A stretch of DNA of 64,000 bases, taken from NCBI GenBank assembly GCA_963681505.1, contig OY811986.1:858140-922139 (forward strand), given 5' to 3'. Source of the stretch: Eunapius fragilis. Taxonomy: Eukaryota > Porifera > Demospongiae > Spongillida > Spongillidae. The notes under the pieces were generated by a model. That model ran no database searches. It had not been told where the DNA came from and saw only the letters and a list, made by a program, of their open reading frames with translations. The translations under genes were made by a program, and so were the position numbers. Positions 54 through 63,807 of the stretch are shown here, piece by piece. Positions within the stretch are counted from its first letter, which is position 1. Every line of letters starts with the position of its first letter.

Positions 54-11870
<11,817 letters not shown>

Positions 11871-13080: not shown

Positions 13081-13653
13081 TTATTTCTGTTGGAACATAA
13101 TAACAGCGATGCCTTCAATTGCACGGGAGATGTTTGAAGAGGCTGTATTTAACATTTAAAAAGTCTTCTAAACGTTCTCCCCACCCCAGCGTACCAAGTA
13201 CACAAACATAAAATGGTTATGCACACAAAGATCACACTGACTGGACCACGTCACAACACCACACAACAGCAGCGGCCTCCTTCCTCTGCCTTCACTTTTC
13301 TCCTCTGTTCGCCTGCCTGCCCGTTCAAAAGGGGTGCTCTTTCCGCTGATTAGTAAGAACGTGCACCGTATGTTAAACGTACACATTTCCTTTAGAACGC
13401 CATATTGCTTACGGTTGGCAACGTCTTTGAGCACAATGTGAAGTGTGTTGTCCCTCTCGATATTGTAGTCATTGAGAGTTTTATCGTCTTCCAGTTGCTT
13501 ATTGTCAAAGACAAGTCTCTGCTGGTAGGATGGAATATTCTCCTTATCCTGGATCTTCACTTTGACATTGGCTATGGTGTCGCTTGGGGACACCTCCAGC
13601 GCTATGGTCTTCCCCGTCAGAGTCCGTACGAATATCTGCATCGCTCGTGGCAA
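13081..13653 (-). CDS. Ubiquitin-like protein without diglycine (Ubl-C)
   Basis: The minus-strand exon encodes one ubiquitin fold starting [20 protein letters not shown] (ATG at 13,641; an in-frame ATG at 13,653 adds MPRA). Relative to ubiquitin it keeps Leu8, Lys11, Lys27, Lys29, Lys33, Lys48 and Val70. Ile44 is Val, Lys63 is Arg, and the end LRLRGG is replaced by LKDVAN. The open frame runs on to 13,168, but a good donor (CCAACC|GTAAGC) follows residue 76 in phase 1. A phase-matched acceptor (AATACAG) opens a 62-nt last exon at 13,142-13,081 encoding a mildly hydrophobic end, [13 protein letters not shown]. It probably acts as a non-conjugated ubiquitin mimic. Family and Ubl exon are certain; the terminal exon is tentative. 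Convergent with GRK. Confidence 0.75.
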
Positions 13654-36252: not shown

Positions 36253-36386
36253 TCAGAAAAAAAGAAGGAAAAACACGAGGGCCGCGATGGCAGTGACCGC
36301 ACCTCCCGCTGCAGCATACCGAATGAGGCGAGCTCTCCGCTTGTTCTTACTGATGATACCAAGGGGGCGTCGGCTGCTCATACCAT
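36253..36386 (-). CDS. Tail-anchor terminal exon T4 (partial gene)
   Basis: Minus-strand acceptor ATGGCAG opens a 134-nt exon in phase 1, ending in TGA. It encodes a basic stretch (SSRRPLG, KNKRRARLIRY), then the membrane span AAAGGAVTAIAALVFFLLFF right up to the stop. This is the layout of a C-terminal tail anchor. No Ubl exon lies between it and 43.4 kb, but the phase fits the Ubl-A exon (43,471-43,687), giving a 116-residue protein. It could be an alternative last exon of Ubl-A or an orphan. Confidence 0.6.
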
Positions 36387-36439
36387 CTGCCATATAAGGG
36401 AAAACCGATGTGTGACCTTCACTCTTCTATTTTTGCCCT

Positions 36440-36755
36440 CCCCCTCACTCTCCCCCCTCCTCCACTCCCTCCCTCCCCCTCCTCCACTCCCTCCCCCCTC
36501 CCTCTCCCCTCCCTCCCTCCCTCCTCCACTCCCTCCCTCTCCCCCTCCTCCACTCCCTCCCTCTCCCCCGTCCTCCACTCCCTCCCTCACTCCCCCTCCC
36601 TCTCCCCCTCCTCCACTCCCTCCCTCTCCCCCCTCCTCCACTCCCTCCCTCCCTCTCCTCCACTCCCTCCCTCCCTCTCCTCCACTCCCTCCCTCCCTCT
36701 CCCCCTCCCTCTCCCCCCTCCTCCACTCCCTCCCTCCCTCACTCCCCCTCCATTC
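36440..36755. repeat. (CTCCCTCC)n polypyrimidine repeat
   Basis: Degenerate CTCCACTCCCTCCCTCTCCC units. Confidence 0.93.
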
Positions 36756-36989
36756 ATGCCTCTTGCCTCCCAATGGGTTACAGAAAAGTGAATACCTTTG
36801 TAGGAACACCACAATGGATTGCATGGGGGTGTGCATGTGACCAAAATAGCTCAATCATGTTATGTGTTGAAAATCAAGGAAACGAATTAGGTTAATCTTT
36901 AGACATGTGAGTGTCCCCAGGGTGGTAAGAGGCCGTATGAAATCATGGGCCAAGGTAAGTTATGGAGCCATAGAAGGGGAAAAGGAAGC

Positions 36990-39045
36990 ACACGTTAGCA
37001 GGCTGGCTCTCCTCACACATGTTAGCAGGCTGGCTCTCCTCACACCTGTTAGCAGGCTGGCTCCCCTCACATCTGTTAGCAGGCTGGCTCTCCTCACACC
37101 TGTTAGCAGGCTGGCTCTCAGCACACCTGTTAGCAGGCTGGCTCTCCTCACACCTGTTAGCAGGCTGGCTCTCCTCACACTTGTTAGCAGGCTGGCTCCT
37201 CTCACACATGTTAGCAGGCTGGTTCTCCTCACACTTGTTAGCAGGCTGGCTCTCCTCACACATGTTAGCAGGCTGGCTCTCCTCACACCTGTTAGCAGGC
37301 TGGTTCTCCTCACACCTGTTAGCAGGCTGGCTCCCCTCACACCTGTTAGCAGGCTGGTTCTCCTCACACCTGTTAGCAGGCTGGCTCCCCTCACACCTGT
37401 TAGCAGGCTGGCTCTCCTCACACCTGTTAGCAGGCTGGCTCCCCTCACACCTGTTAGCAGGCTGGCTCTCCTCACACCTGTTAGCAGGCTGGCTCTCCTC
37501 ACAACTGTTAGCAGGCTGGCTCCCCTCACACCTGTTAGCAGGCTGGTTCCCCTCACACCTGTTAGCAGGCTGGCTCTCCTCACACCTGTTAGCAGGCTGG
37601 CTCCCCTCACACCTGTTAGCAGGCTGGCTCTCCTCACACCTGTTAGCAGGCTGGTTCTCCTCACACCTGTTAGCAGGCTGGCTCCCTTCACACCTGTTAG
37701 CAGGCTGGCTCCCCTCACACCTGTTAGCAGGCTGGCTCCCCTCACACCTGTTAGCAGGCTGGCTCTCCTCACACCTGTTAGCAGGCTGGCTCTCCTCACA
37801 CCTGTTAGCAGGCTGGCTCTCCTCACACCTGTTAGCAGGCTGGCTCCCCTCACACCTGTTAGCAGGCTGGCTCCCCTCACACCTGTTAGCAGGCTGGTTC
37901 CCCTCACACCTGTTAGCAGGCTGGCTCCCCTCACACCTGTTAGCAGGCTGGTTCCCCTCACAACTGTTAGCAGGCTGGCTCTCCTCACACTTGCTAGCAG
38001 GCTGGCTCTCCTCACACCTGTTAGCAGGCTGGCTCCCCTCACACCTGTTAGCAGGCTGGCTCCCCTCACACCTGTTAGCAGGCTGGCTCTCCTCACACCT
38101 GTTAGCAGGCTGGCTCCCCTCACACCTGTTAGCAGGCTGGCTCTCCTCACACCTGTTAGCAGGCTGGCTCTCCTCACACCTGTTAGCAGGCTGGCTCTCC
38201 TCACACCTGTTAGCAGGCTGGCTCTCCTCACACCTGTTAGCAGGCTGGCTCTCCTCACACTTGTTAGCAGGCTGGTTCCCCTCACAACTGTTAGCAGGCT
38301 GGCTCTCCTCACACCTGTTAGCAGGCTGGTTGCCCTCACACTTGTTAGCAGGCTGGTTCCCCTCACACTTGCTAGCAGGCTGGCTCTCCTCACACCTGTT
38401 AGCAGGCTGGCTCCCCTCACACCTGTTAGCAGGCTGGCTCTCCTCACACCTGTTAGCAGGCTGGTTCCCCTCACACTTGTTAGCAGGCTGGTTCCCCTCA
38501 CAACTGTTAGCAGGCTGGCTCTCCTCACACCTGTTAGCAGGCTGGCTCCCCTCACACCTGTTAGCAGGCTGGCTCTCCTCACACCTGTTAGCAGGCTGGC
38601 TCTCCTCACACCTGTTAGCAGGCTGGTTCCCCTCACACCTGTTAGCAGGCTGGTTCCCCTCACACCTGTTAGCAGGCTGGCTCCCCTCACACCTGTTAGC
38701 AGGCTGGCTCCCCTCACACCTGTTAGCAGGCTGGCTCCCCTCACACCTGTTAGCAGGCTGGCTCCCCTCACACCTGTTAGCAGGCTGGCTCCCCTCACAC
38801 CTGTTAGCAGGCTGGCTCCCCTCACACCTGTTAGCAGGCTGGCTCTCCTCACACATGTTAGCAGGCTGGCTCCTATCACACCTGTTAGCAGGCTGGCTCT
38901 CCTCACACCTGTTAGCAGGCTGGCTCTCCTCACACTTGTTAGCAGGCTGGCTCTCCTCACACCTGTTAGCAGGCTGGCTCCTCTCACACCTGTTAGCAGG
39001 CTGGCTCCTCTCACACCTGTTAGCAGGCTGGTTCTCAGCACAGCA
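36990..39045. repeat. 27-bp minisatellite, about 76 copies
   Basis: Tandem GTTAGCAGGCTGGCTCTCCT-CACACCT with few variants (GGCTCC, GGTTCC, GGTTCT). As 27 is divisible by three, two frames on each strand stay open for about 700 codons, including a minus-strand PANRCEESQ nonamer. I treat these as artefacts; the array lies in the putative Ubl-A to T4 intron. Confidence 0.97.
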
Positions 39046-39172
39046 CACACCAGTCAATGATCTAATGATCTAAATAATCTGTGATCTAATTAATGCACAG
39101 CATATTATTGCTATGCAATGGCTGCCAGAGCTCTGGTGCAATAATGCCTCCAGCAGGGACTACCACAGCAAG

Positions 39173-39176
<4 letters not shown>

Positions 39177-39220
<44 letters not shown>
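39177..39220. repeat. Poly-G run, 44 bases
   Basis: Uninterrupted G44; the real length is likely uncertain in the assembly. Confidence 0.9.
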
Positions 39221-39221
<1 letters not shown>

Positions 39222-39574
39222 TTAGCCCACAGTAAGGTGTAACCATGGAGAAGATGGAGGGTACTGAGTATTCTGATGTGGTTCAGGATTTAATTTTTTT
39301 AAATTCCTACCTCATATGAAAAATTATTTAGATTTTGATCCACACAATACAAGAATTTGGAGAGAGGGCGGGGGTGCAAAAGATATTTGGGAAAGTGACC
39401 CCTTCTGTGTAGATTTTGAAGTTTTTTTTCTCCATCAACTGCAAAAAGCCTCCACATGACCACTACATACTCAAAATTGGACTATCCATCATAAAGTTAT
39501 AAGGTATAATTAGCCATACATTTCAATGCAAGTGGTGCATTTGATTTGGTTGTCCTGAAAAATGTGAAAACATA

Positions 39575-40250
39575 TCACAAGGGCGACACCATCACAAGGG
39601 CGACACCATCACAAGGATGACACCATCACAAGGTGGCACCATCACAAAGGTGGCACCATCACAAAGGTGACACCATCACAAGGGTGACACCATCACAAGG
39701 GTGACACCATCACAAAGGTGACACCATCACAAGGGTGACACCATCACAAAGGTGACACCATCACAAGGGCGACACCATCACAAGGGTGACACCATCACAA
39801 AGGTGGCACCATCACAAAGGTGACACCATCACAAGGGCGACACCATCACAAGGGTGACACCATCACAAGGGCGACACCATCACAAGGGTGACACCATCAC
39901 AAGGTGGCACCATCACAAGGGTGACACCATCACAAGGTGGCACCATCACAAAGGTGGCACCATCACAAAGGTGACACCATCACAAGGGTGACACCATCAC
40001 AAGGGTGACACCATCACAAGGGTGACACCATCACAAGGATGACACCATCACAAGGTGACACCATCACAAGGGTGACACCATCACAAGGGTGACACCATCA
40101 CAAGGGTGACACCATCACAAGGGTGACACCATCACAAGGGTGACACCATCACAAGGGCGACACCATCACAAGGGTGACACCATCACAAGGGTGACACCAT
40201 CACAAGGATGACACCATTACAAGGCGACACCATCGCAAGGGTGACATCAT
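39575..40250. repeat. 15-16-bp minisatellite
   Basis: About 44 copies of GGGTGACACCATCACAA with AAGGTGG variants. Confidence 0.96.
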
Positions 40251-40695
40251 CGAGGAAGTAAAAATTATATTAATTTAAACGTGTCTTAGGGGTCTAAATA
40301 ATAGTTTGATAAATTCTTTTCCGCAGCCCATCTCATTTTAATAAAAATTCAGTGAATTAAATAACTGTCCCATTTTTTGACAGGAATTCTTGAGAGGAAT
40401 ATTAATCAGATTACCTCCTGTAATCCAACAGTAGTCAGAGTACTGTGCCATCTCTACGATGTGAACCCAAATAATATTGCCCCCCCCCCCCCCCCCCCTC
40501 CCCCCATTGTGACCTCTTACTTTGTAGGATTACACAACTAATCCTTGCATAACCTGACCCCACCCACTTTGTTACTAGACTCTTAACCAGTGCACACTTA
40601 TATCTGCCCACTGACAGAGCTCTGATACAACACTCTAACTACACTGGCAGCTGATACAACAACATGCAATAACAAAAACATAAAAAAAAGCTATG

Positions 40696-40790
40696 TCATT
40701 TTCTCCACTTTATGTAGACCACTAGGCCCACAGCTAGAGTGGCTGCTATGCCAAGGCATAAGTAGAAGTACTTGTATTCCCTCTTGCAAC
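40696..40790 (-). CDS. Tail-anchor terminal exon T3 (last exon of Ubl-A)
   Basis: Minus-strand acceptor CACATCAG opens a 95-nt exon in phase 1 that encodes CKREYKYFYL then the membrane span CLGIAATLAVGLVVYI and the end KWRK, followed by TGA. It joins in frame to the Ubl-A exon directly (103 residues) or through the 24-nt microexon (111 residues). Confidence 0.7.
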
Positions 40791-40869
40791 CTGATGTGTG
40801 GTGTGCGTGAATGTGATGTGACATGTGTGGTTGAGTGGGTGTGAAGTGATGCCAAATGAACATTCACAC

Positions 40870-41875
40870 AACGCCAACACTTCCCTCCTGCCTAACTTCA
40901 ACCCAACACTTCCCTCCTGCCTAACTTTAACCCAACACTTCCCTACTGCCTAACTTCAACCCAACACTTCCCTCCTGCCTAACTTCAACCCAACACTTCC
41001 CTCCTGCCTAACTTCAACCCAACACTTCCCTCCTGCCTAACTTCAACCCAACACTTCCCTCCTGCCTAACTTCAACCCAACACTTCCCTCCTGCCTCACT
41101 TCAACCCAACACTTCCCTCCTGCCTAACTTCAACCCAACACTTCCCTCCTGCCTAACTTCAACCCAACACTTCCCTCCTGCCTAACTTCAACCCAACACT
41201 TCCCCCTGCCTAACTTCAACCCACCACTTCCCTCCTGTCTAACTTCAACCCAACACTTCCCTCCTGCCTAACTTCAACCCAACACTTCCCCCTGCCTAAC
41301 TTCAACCCAACACTTCCCTCCTGCCTAACTTCAACCCAACACTTCCCCCTGCCTAACTTCAACCCAACACTTCCCCCTGCCTAACTTCAACCCAACACTT
41401 CCCCCTGCCTAACTTCAACCCAACACTTCCCTCCTGCCTAACTTCAACCCAACACTTCCCCCTGCCTAACTTCAACCCAACACTTCCCTACTGCCTAACT
41501 TCAACCCAACACATCCCTCCTGCCTAACTTCAACCCAACACTTCCCTCCTGTCTAACTTCAACCCAACACTTCCCTACTGCCTAACTTTAACGCAACACT
41601 TCCCCCCTGCCTAACTTCAACCCAACACTTCCCCCTGCCCAACTTCAACACAACACTTCCCTCCTGTCTAACTTCAACCCAACACTTCCCTCCTGCCTAA
41701 CTTCAACCCAACACTTCCCCCTGCCTAACTTCAACCCAACACTTCCCTCCTGTCTAACTTCAACCCAACACTTCCCTACTGCCTAACTTTAACGCAACAC
41801 TTCCCTCCTGCCTAACTTCAACCCAACACTTCCCTACTGCCTAACTTCAACTCAACACTTCCCTACTGCCTCACG
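40870..41875. repeat. 29-bp minisatellite
   Basis: About 35 copies of CTTCAACCCAACACTTCCCT-CCTGCCTAA, some 26-28 bp. On the minus strand it lies in the intron between the microexon and T3. Confidence 0.96.
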
Positions 41876-41894
41876 CTGTTCCCTACACACTCAC

Positions 41895-41918
41895 CTTCAG
41901 GGTCTTCTGTCATTGCAA
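41895..41918 (-). CDS. 24-nt microexon of Ubl-A
   Basis: Minus strand: acceptor CATTAG, 24 nt, donor GTGAGT. Joined to the flanking exons it reads AMTEDPEG, an acidic linker between the Ubl domain and the T3 membrane span. It keeps phase 1 at both ends, so it can be included or skipped. Confidence 0.6.
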
Positions 41919-42750
41919 CTAATGGAAAGAATAGCATGAGGATAAGGACAAATTAAAGAGTGTGTGAAGGTGTAGGAAGAAATAGAAGAGGAGTGGGTGT
42001 GTAGGAAGGGAAGGGAGAGGTGGGAGGAGTATGTCAAAAGGGGGAGAAGTGGAGAAGGAGAGTAGGAAGAAAAAGGGAAGGGTTAGCTGGGGGAAGAGGG
42101 TGTAAGAGCATTGAAAGATTCATTCAATCTTTTTTGATGGGATTATCAAACAGATATATACCAGGGCCATTAGCAGCACATATATAAACCACAGTACAAT
42201 AAATACACGCATCACAGGACAATTATCCAAACAAATTAAGTTCGCTTTCAGTAGTGTTCGTTAACGCAATTGGTCTTTCGGCATGCCACGTCACCTATAC
42301 TTACGCACTGTGCGTAACACTAGAACGTGCACTGCCACTATCCAGCTATGTGTGTAACTATTGCTGTATGCATGATGCAGCACACTGCAAGCACATGTAC
42401 ATGATGATGATGTACAGCTAGTACCTTTCAAAAACAGATAATATAAATGCATGAAATTAGCACAACATGAATTTGAATCATGTTGTGGCATAACCAGTTT
42501 AATTCAATCACAATCAATTCTTTCAGCGGAATATATATATATATATAAATTCGCTGCATGTCCTCGACCTAGGAATCAGAACACAAACTACAACAAGTAT
42601 TCTGCCATGAAGGAAAACAAGTCTTATTATCAATAGGAAAGATCGAGAAGCTTTAATCTTGCAATTTTTAAGCCCTGAAGGAAGTGTAATATGACACTAC
42701 TGGTGTAGTCGCCATATTCCCTAGCAGTTACTACTCAGTAGCTGTAATGA

Positions 42751-43020
42751 GCTATACCATTATTTAACCATACACCCCTACGGATGGCAATCATTCCAAA
42801 CGTAAACCCCCCAGGACAGTATATAATACCACCCCTGGACAAGCTTTTGTTATATCTACACCCCCCGGCTTTTAAATACCTCCTATTTCTATCCTGGACA
42901 AGTTATATGATACCTGCTAACCCCCCCTGGGACAGGCATTTATATTACCGGGACTTAAACCCCCCCCCCCCCCCCGTACACCTCATCTGTAGGGGTGTAG
43001 GGTTAAATAATGGAATAGTC
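42751..43020. mobile_element. MITE, GGGCTATTCCATT family, copy 2
   Basis: Inverted ends GCTATACCATTATTTAACCA (left) and its near complement GGTTAAATAATGGAATAGTC (right), with CACCCCTACGGATG inside. About 270 bp, no coding capacity, C-run at 42,960-42,975. Closest to copy 3 at 61,972. Confidence 0.85.
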
Positions 43021-43470
43021 CTGCCCCAATTGACACAAGGTGTGTTCGGCAACCACCTAAACTCCCAGTTTTGTAGAAAATGAAATGAATACGTTCTACA
43101 GGATTGAACTGTACTTTCTAGTAACACCCCTTCAAGCGGATCGTCATCATAGGCACTGACTTGCTGCTGTGCACCAATTTACGTTTCTAGCGATTGGGCC
43201 GCGCAAATAATTGAGGTAAGCCTAGCTATGCCTACGTCATTATTTTGCAGCAACCTGCGCTTGCACGGTACGCTGAAAACAGAAACTCTATGTATGAATT
43301 TTATAACCATTGTGTGTCGAGAGATCCAAACGCCCGGTAAGCCTTGGCGCCACATTTGAAGTGCTGGGTGCCAAACACTTCATACCTCAACCGTTAGTAC
43401 CCTAAATTTTTTTTTTTGTAGGCGCACACGTACGTATTCGCGTACAGCCACCCACGCTATCCACACATAC

Positions 43471-43687
43471 TTTTCTTCTTGAGGTGCAGAGTGCTCTCGT
43501 TCTTTATGTCGTAGTCGTTAAGAGTTCGCCCCTCCTCCACCTCTTTTCTGTTGTACTGAAGCGTATAGGAGTCGGGAGAGAGTCCTTCTTTGTCCTGGAT
43601 CTTCATCTTAATATTATCAATCGTGTCCATTGGAGAAACCTCCAGAGCTATCGTCTTGCCATCGTCGATCTTCACGAATATCTGCAT
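43471..43687 (-). CDS. Ubiquitin-like exon Ubl-A
   Basis: A 217-nt exon, start ATG at 43,687 (upstream in-frame ATG at 43,729 would add a 14-residue leader), encoding [20 protein letters not shown] and ending TLHLKKK. Versus ubiquitin it keeps Lys6, Lys11, Lys27, Lys29, Lys33 and Lys48. The whole binding patch is lost (Leu8 to Asp, Ile44 to Gln, Val70 to Lys), Lys63 is Asn, and there is no diglycine. The donor AAAA|GTATGT follows residue 72 in phase 1; reading through it gives a stop after four more codons. The full gene runs from here leftward to T3 at 40,696 or T4 at 36,253. Predicted cytosol-facing Ubl on a membrane tail anchor; function unknown. Confidence 0.85.
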
Positions 43688-43739
43688 CGTACACGGTCTA
43701 ACAGCTCGGCTAACAGCAAAGCGCCACAACTAATATTTT

Positions 43740-43792
43740 AAAACGGCCTGGAGACGAGGCTATGGTTTAGCTACTAGTCTCCAGGCCGTTTT
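43740..43792. repeat. Hairpin with 16-bp perfect arms
   Basis: AAAACGGCCTGGAGAC (43,740-43,755) and its exact complement (43,777-43,792) with a 21-base loop, between Ubl-A and Ubl-B. Perhaps the remains of a MITE. Confidence 0.85.
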
Positions 43793-44049
43793 TAGATCAG
43801 GGTCGAAGGTGGAGCCCACAAGATGTATCCCACAACACATTAGGATGCCAGACTGCCCTACAACATGATAATGTGTGTAAGGGACAAAGGCGCAAAGGTG
43901 CAGTACTTAAAAGAAGTGTTATTTTAGAAGCAAGAAGATTCCACAGGTTTATAGAACACCGAAAACAGCTTTTGCCAGCAACACACCACAACAGGCTATC
44001 CATTCTTATCTCAGCTACTAGCTAGAAGAGAGCTCTCCTTCCTCCCGCC

Positions 44050-44453
44050 CTATCTCAGCAGGTCCGAAGGTCCCTCGCACGTCATGGCCTCCCTCAGGAA
44101 GTACAGGGCACACAGGATGGCGATCAGCACAGCAAACAGCCCGTAGAAGGCATAATCAGACATCCACAGGAACAGCAGCACGATGGCCACGCCCACCACC
44201 ATGGCGCATGCCGAGTATCGCATAGCTTCCTTCCTGGTCAACTTCACACCTCTGCCACTGCTGCTGCCACTGAGCACATGGTGATGGCTTTCCACATAGC
44301 TGGCTGTAAGGAACATTGAGGTGGTTATGATAAGTTGAGTGGTACACGGATGGACTACAGCTAGACGATGTTGACACAATCATTATTATGATTACTAGCA
44401 ATAAAAATTTCACCTCCTAAATTGTGCATATGTATGTAAGCAGGCATGCATGA

Positions 44454-44509
<56 letters not shown>

Positions 44510-44823
44510 GTGTGCGTGCGTGCAGCAATAACTATTCAATGTAAAAAAAGGCCTTGCGATAGAATTACATGCAATTTGTAATTAGAGCCCACCCTCTCAC
44601 ATTGCACGATCTTCTTCAGGTACAGCGTGCTCTCATTTTTTATGTCGTAGTCGGTAAGAGTTCGTCCCTCCTCGACCTCCCTGTTGCCATATTCAAGAAA
44701 GAAGGACTCCGTAGAGAGTCCTTCTTTGTCGCGGATCTTTGTTTTAATATTGTCGATCGTGTCCATAGGGGAAACCTCTATGGCAATCGTCCTCCCGCCT
44801 TCGATTCTCACGAATATCTGCAT
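44050..44823 (-). CDS. Ubiquitin-like protein with two membrane spans (Ubl-B)
   Basis: Two exons: 44,601-44,823 (Ubl) and 44,050-44,303 (T2), joined in phase 1 through donor CAAT|GTGAGA and acceptor CTTACAG; 158 residues. The Ubl starts [20 protein letters not shown]; Leu8 is Glu, Ile44 is Glu, Lys48 is Arg, and there is no diglycine. T2 encodes a Ser/His/Gly linker, a basic [10 protein letters not shown], two hydrophobic segments ([15 protein letters not shown] and [15 protein letters not shown]) and a 15-residue end. The Ubl shares [17 protein letters not shown] and YDIKNESTL with Ubl-A, so the two are tandem duplicates, yet T2 is unrelated to T3. Known membrane Ubl proteins (TMUB1/2, HERPUD) act in ER quality control; a similar role here is only a guess. 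Divergent from CCDC186, ATGs 474 bp apart. Confidence 0.8.
44459..44515. repeat. (TG)n microsatellite
   Basis: About 50 bp of TG in the Ubl-B intron. Confidence 0.95.
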
Positions 44824-63709: not shown

Positions 63710-63807
63710 TCAATGTTTCCGTAGCAACCCCGCGGCAAAGACGGCAGCTGCTCCCATGGCAACAGCTGCTCCAGCCACTGCGGCTCCTCCAAGGATTCGC
63801 AGGCTAT
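63710..63807 (-). CDS. Tail-anchor terminal exon T1 (partial gene)
   Basis: Minus-strand acceptor CTTTTAG opens a 98-nt exon in phase 1 encoding SLRILG then a Gly/Ala-rich span (GAAVAGAAVAMGAAAVFAAG) and the end LLRKH before TGA. Length, phase and layout (short linker, one span, basic end) match T3 and T4. Its upstream exon would lie past the window end. By analogy it may be another Ubl exon, but any gene with a tail anchor is possible. Confidence 0.55.

Follow-up and report, generated by a model that had tools for sequence, protein, structure and literature searches.

Putative membrane-held, ubiquitin-derived proteins without a conjugating GG in the sponge Eunapius fragilis

We analysed a 64,000-nucleotide window of the genome of the sponge Eunapius fragilis (contig OY811986.1, here C16, positions C16:858140-922139; the genome comprises 219 Mb in 24 contigs), in which an earlier note had proposed a cluster of ubiquitin-like (Ubl) proteins anchored by membrane spans. 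Our models identify four genes, A, B, C1 and D, all on the same chromosome. Each combines a ubiquitin-fold exon that lacks the conjugating C-terminal Gly-Gly (GG) with a short terminal exon across a predicted phase-1 intron (Table 1). The terminal exons are predicted to supply a CAAX box (C1 and D), two membrane spans (B) or one C-terminal span (A). On balance, we favour the view that these genes form a ubiquitin-derived family whose products have no C-terminal GG through which to be conjugated, their last exon serving to hold them at a membrane. The proposal of a span-anchored family survives in part: spans are predicted in A and B, but half of the members found, C1 and D, end in CAAX boxes and keep the ubiquitin binding face.

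Table 1. Predicted exons of genes A, B, C1 and D. Positions are those of the window unless given on C16; splice-site scores, in brackets, were hand-made.
Feature	Positions	Strand	Description
Gene A exon 1, Ubl-A	43471..43687	minus	no GG; donor AAA/GTATGT; phase 1 out
Gene A micro-exon M	41895..41918	minus	24 bases, entered and left in phase 1; donor AAG/GTGAGT (5.7)
Gene A terminal exon T4	36253..36386	minus	one span running up to the stop, preceded by a basic stretch; shaped like a tail anchor
T3, a doubtful other candidate for the last exon of gene A	40696..40790	minus	acceptor (-1.24); weak codon score
Gene B exon 1, Ubl-B	44601..44823	minus	no GG; donor AAT/GTGAGA; phase 1 out
Gene B terminal exon T2	44050..44303	minus	two hydrophobic spans, stop; 297-base intron ahead
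Gene C1 exon 1, Ubl with Leu8/Val44/Val70	13413..13641	minus	no GG; donor ACC/GTAAGC (weak, 0.6); phase 1 out
Gene C1 terminal exon	13251..13345	minus	ERAPLL and CAAX end CCCVVL
Gene D, C1 paralogue	C16:1606970-1606591		83-base intron; end CCCCKLI

Results

Ubl-A and Ubl-B are ubiquitin-like exons that have lost the binding face

The two minus-strand exons described earlier, at 43471-43687 (Ubl-A) and 44601-44823 (Ubl-B), were verified in coordinates and frame: both start with MQIFV, run in an open frame and end in phase 1, with one base left over and no GG. The Pfam ubiquitin family matched Ubl-A, tested as a Ubl-A/M/T3 model, at 1.2e-18 and Ubl-B, tested as a Ubl-B/T2 model, at 1.8e-14. Ubl-B is predicted to take a ubiquitin-like fold, with a mean predicted local distance difference test score (pLDDT) of 91.4 from an input alignment of the three window exons. 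Positions 8, 44 and 70, which are L, I and V in ubiquitin, read D8/Q44/K70 in Ubl-A and E8/E44/K70 in Ubl-B; the hydrophobic binding face of ubiquitin is replaced in both by charged or polar residues, as the earlier note had stated. The frames are open just 14-18 codons upstream of MQIFV, and a further upstream exon is still possible.

Genome-wide, A is closest to B (76%) and less similar to ubiquitin (65%). Because nonsynonymous divergence between the two exons is low relative to synonymous divergence (dN 0.15 and dS 0.91 by NG86; 0.17/0.74 by YN00; 0.14/0.61 by LWL85), the exons look selected, and the values indicate purifying selection. Loss of the GG and of the binding face would suit a pair of decaying ubiquitin duplicates, and Ubl repeats are numerous in the genome, a few of them interrupted by stops. 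Such decay is nonetheless scarcely credible to us in the face of these substitution rates, the intact frames and the confident Ubl-B fold.

A Ubl profile search over 114 kb (20 kb to the left, the window and 30 kb to the right, the scope also of the tail and exon searches below) located Ubl exons at about 43.6, 13.5 and 44.7 kb and nowhere else. The wider family proposed earlier is partly upheld: the exon at 13.6 kb is a true relative and belongs to C1, and D lies elsewhere on C16, but the tail at 13.6 kb ends in a CAAX box and has no span.

A conserved, putatively lipid-anchored branch

The C1 model joins its two exons across a 67-base phase-1 intron into a 107-residue product ending CCCVVL. 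CAAX boxes are found in C1 (CVVL) and D (CKLI), and in neither A nor B. Over 72 positions, with one inserted D residue omitted, C1 is 72% and D 62% identical to ubiquitin; the nearest relative of D in the genome is C1 (69%), with ubiquitin at 63%.

A protein profile search with C1 and D matched 242 proteins, of which the 120 best were listed and 20 retrieved in full. Ephydatia muelleri P0046 (EMCRGX_G028873) is 83% identical over the full query and ends CCVVL; P0053 is 80% identical and ends CVVL; and E. muelleri P0070 (EMCRGX_G028979), 63% identical to C1, stands beside D in our tree and ends CCTLL. Since both E. muelleri proteins carry it, the CAAX end is predicted independently in another species. 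Leu8, Val44 and Val70 are invariant across C1, D, P0046, P0053 and P0070. An acidic di-leucine motif, ExxxLL, is present in 3/3 C1-type tails and 0/2 D-type tails. These comparisons make the lipid branch well supported as a conserved group.

A loose CAAX pattern ends 6 of the 240 best-listed proteins from the C1/D and A/B searches. P0060, P0089 and P0171 were judged by eye to be chance matches, leaving P0046, P0053 and P0070. Among the 20 proteins retrieved, nine of C1/D type have no CAAX end (P0058, P0063, P0064, P0066, P0075, P0078, P0079, P0085 and P0088); these are probably single-exon read-throughs. P0055 is a read-through of D and P0057 of C1.

Could C1 and D be diverged orthologues of MUB/UBL3, the prenyl-anchored ubiquitin-fold proteins? 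The architecture is the same (ubiquitin fold, no GG, a short charged tail and a CAAX box), but the C1 exon, tested alone (77 aa), scores 90 bits against Pfam ubiquitin and 14.1 bits against PF13881 (cut-off 23), which we take to be the Pfam family of MUB/UBL3, and the identities of C1 and D to ubiquitin given above also speak against orthology, which we consider very unlikely. Because its PF13881 score falls below the cut-off, we do not file C1 as MUB/UBL3: it may work like these proteins but is not a member of their family by profile. PF13881 was also not among the families matched at E≤1 by the B/T2 or A/M/T3 models. A search of the E. fragilis genome for a canonical UBL3 with PF13881 gave nothing at E 0.001 or 10, and the control gave no match either.

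Candidate transmembrane tails of genes A and B

The earlier note had placed three phase-1 terminal exons with membrane spans, T2, T3 and T4, downstream of the Ubl exons. Each does open in phase 1 and encode a hydrophobic span near its stop, but T3 is weak. The 19-residue means of the T2 spans are 2.49 and 2.33. Acceptor scores are 2.78 for T2, 3.57 for T4 and -1.24, the poorest, for T3. When synonymous codons were scored, with 2197 codons of seven long frames, chosen as likely coding, as the training set, 1/70 background tails scored as high as T2, 0/70 as high as T4 and 19/70 as high as T3. T3 was demoted as the main tail of Ubl-A on its acceptor and codon score; the splice sites of C1 are weak too. 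Because the C1 and D tails, which are supported by relatives, also score near zero (-0.04 and 0.00; T3, -0.02), the failed codon test is weak evidence against T3, and T3 is retained as a weaker candidate tail of gene A.

An exon search that required both splice sites, with a cluster threshold of 9, yielded 35 clusters over 228 kb of strand (114 kb x 2), exons of a kinase-like gene included. It missed the Ubl-B, T2 and C1 exons, which by design it is poorly able to recover, as they lack one site or have weak ones. On the minus strand from 33.2 to 46.3 kb, it returned only Ubl-A (with an acceptor at 43709), M (barely above threshold, 9.1 vs 9) and T4 (as 36386-36303, with an internal donor), all phase-compatible. 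Because these are the only such clusters on that stretch, Ubl-A, M and T4 are preferred as gene A, our best model, with one C-terminal span. Gene B, composed of Ubl-B and T2 with two predicted spans, is well supported at the sequence level. The joined models translate cleanly with junctions in phase 1, into predicted products of 124 residues (A) and 158 residues (B). Judged by sequence, A with T4 has the single span close to the C-terminus that defines a tail-anchored protein, and B, with two spans, does not fit that class. Several minisatellite arrays, noted by eye at about 36480-41890 of the window, fill the presumed introns of gene A.

No second genomic copy was found for T2 at E≤1 or for T4 at E≤5. 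A match of T2 to SecE (E 0.002, 18.5 bits) lies below its cut-off of 22.7 and was taken as chance; a match of T3 at C4:9753367 (E 0.43) has 12/28 residues alike and, by eye, no hydrophobic span in that frame.

In a scan of AG-led reading frames over the 114 kb, on both strands and in all phases, the hydrophobic terminal frames, counted per acceptor, numbered 84 when the acceptor scored ≥0 and hydrophobicity was ≥2.0. With these cut-offs raised to 1.5 and 2.2 there were 28, the tails under study included, or 0.41 per 10 kb per strand and phase. Because such frames are common, a span near a stop is weak evidence. It might be, then, that in A and B the Ubl exon is read through or ends alone, yielding small soluble Ubl proteins, with T2, M and T4 part of no gene or of other genes. 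The abundance of membrane-like tails behind acceptors favours this, as does the failure to find a T2 relative among proteins at E≤1; unspliced, Ubl-A meets a stop only four codons past its last Ubl codon. We nevertheless hold soluble products to be unlikely: T2 lies 297 bases from the Ubl-B donor with matching phase and coding-like codons, M and T4, the sole other exon-like clusters in that part of the minus strand, have matching phases, and the annotations of C1 and D relatives include spliced tails. A transmembrane branch comprising A and B is, on these gene predictions, plausible.

Relationship of the two branches

A tree built from 22 selected rows over 74 columns supports the C1/D clade at 96/91 and the A/B clade at 100/100. 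A CAAX tail is in hand for 5/11 rows of the C1/D clade, and only the Ubl part determined the position of the others. All four genes encode Ser18, which is Glu in ubiquitin, and all lack LRGG at the C-terminus. The predicted phase-1 intron falls just past the fold in each, 72 (A), 74 (B), 76 (C1) and 85 (D) codons in. Common descent of the four genes is likely by these features.

It is also conceivable that the transmembrane pair is the core of the family, with A and B as tail-anchored decoys or adaptors and the CAAX genes as side branches. T4 and T2 are supported by their codons and the face of A and B is rewritten, but cross-species support was found only for the CAAX members; the protein search with an A/B alignment was swamped by polyubiquitin (best 120 of 6394 matches), so that A/B relatives are not assessable. 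A decoy of ubiquitin receptors would, moreover, need the face that A and B have lost. We think this arrangement improbable, and a MUB-like role appears to fit the conserved members better than the decoy role.

Several observations weigh against the family as we have drawn it. T2 relatives were absent at E≤1 (3 candidates) from a protein set that includes E. muelleri, and because none was found, the transmembrane branch may be lineage-specific or mis-modelled. The splice sites of C1 are weak (donor 0.6, acceptor 1.06), codon bias is absent from the tails of C1 and D, and P0046 as annotated has a 45-residue stretch ahead of MQIFV. The D-type protein P0085, whose frame has no CAAX end, has GG exactly at ubiquitin positions 75-76; given this, GG loss may not be universal in the C1/D clade. 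Finally, the tree joins A/B to C1/D only weakly (72/86), and no resemblance is evident among the tails of A, B and C1/D; the case for common descent of the junction therefore rests on its phase and position.

Other features of the window and genome

The earlier note had counted an exon at 63.7 kb as part of the family. This terminal frame (63710-63807, minus; SLRILGGAAVAG...LLRKH stop) is Gly/Ala-rich and hydrophobic, with an acceptor of 5.44 and a codon score matched by 5/70 background tails; we do not place it in the family, as the profile search of the 114 kb found no Ubl exon near it. The kinase-like gene, named by inspection, occurs as two tandem copies, one at about 5051-9182 of the window on the plus strand and one 14.2 to 10.2 kb before the window. 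Tandem diverged ubiquitin-like repeats, many of their units without GG, occupy long frames of up to 864 codons on C21 near 2.13, 5.00-5.03, 5.09 and 5.24-5.28 Mb, on C4 near 8.66 and 8.80 Mb, and at C16:5332315.

The matches listed also include bacterial-looking ubiquitins with a C-terminal hydrophobic span: P0096, P0100, P0102, P0103, P0105 (its span judged by eye), P0107, P0112 and P0119. When seven were tested against the NCBIfam family IPTL-CTERM (cut-off 20.5), P0100 passed (29.4), P0105 nearly did (19.0) and five had no match; P0100, P0112 and P0119 have a signal peptide by eye. A ubiquitin sorted to the cell surface would merit separate study.

Discussion

We propose, tentatively and with rather less confidence than we place in the family itself, that in the lineage of this sponge a copy of ubiquitin was freed from conjugation and fixed at the membrane, and that its terminal exon was then swapped at one phase-1 junction, from a prenyl signal to one or two spans, as its face changed from hydrophobic to charged, in convergence with MUB/UBL3. 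The products of C1 and D would be geranylgeranylated (CVVL and CKLI; CTLL in the Ephydatia relative), and palmitoylation of neighbouring cysteines could aid the anchor. A would be inserted as a tail-anchored protein and B as a hairpin, with the Ubl fold facing the cytosol.

Like MUB/UBL3, C1 and D could present a fixed mono-ubiquitin-like face at the membrane (Leu8/Val44/Val70, Arg42, Lys48). This face might bind the backside of UBE2D-type ubiquitin-conjugating enzymes (E2s) or ubiquitin-binding sorting adaptors, and such binding could regulate the ubiquitination or endocytosis of membrane cargo; the ExxxLL of C1-type tails suggests a possible link with AP clathrin adaptors. C1 and D have the fold, the absence of GG, the anchor signal and the ubiquitin face that a MUB-like role needs, and may bind E2s or ubiquitin-binding adaptors. 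For A and B, which have lost the face, different partners are probable. Because the fold and anchor are kept while the face is rewritten, a change of partner is the natural guess.

If this proposal is correct, ubiquitin itself can be converted into a lasting component of the membrane, independently of MUB/UBL3, with the anchor as an exchangeable module. The face is kept on a lipid signal in C1 and D and is absent, on a span, in A and B, and these natural pairs offer a test of MUB/UBL3 action: is tethering enough, or is an Ile44-type face needed?

The family shares with ubiquitin and polyubiquitin the MQIFV start, the fold and several lysines, and C1 and D share Leu8 and Val70; it differs in consisting of single units without GG, in its anchoring terminal exon and, in C1 and D, in Val for Ile44. 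The bacterial-looking ubiquitins likewise have a span after the ubiquitin unit and no free GG end. They differ in that P0100 passes IPTL-CTERM and that a signal peptide is visible by eye in some, which implies an outward orientation; their tails show no similarity to those described here.

TMUB1 and TMUB2 have an N-terminal span before the Ubl domain and two C-terminal spans. Genes A and B resemble them in joining a Ubl domain to membrane spans, and B also has two C-terminal spans where A has one. In A and B, however, the Ubl domain comes first and is ubiquitin-derived, and no N-terminal span is seen ahead of it, although an upstream exon is possible.

Literature matches listed for such sponge proteins held nothing on point. 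The earlier note knew of no described family with this architecture, a statement that overlooks MUB/UBL3, a class of prenyl-anchored ubiquitin-fold proteins described in two papers (PMC4996978, PMC9001657). According to these papers, MUBs tether group VI (UBE2D-like) E2s to the plasma membrane by backside binding, in which a lap-bar loop takes part, and inhibit their charging (PMC4996978), and the ubiquitination of MHC II and CD86 by MARCH1 depends on UBL3 and its prenylation site (PMC9001657). C1 and D resemble MUB/UBL3 in the ubiquitin fold, the lack of a conjugating GG, the CAAX box with its expected prenyl anchor and a possible role with the E2/E3 (ubiquitin ligase) machinery at membranes. 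They differ in that the C1 exon belongs to the ubiquitin family by profile, in that C1 and D keep 62-72% identity to ubiquitin, and in having paralogues, A and B, that are predicted to use membrane spans.

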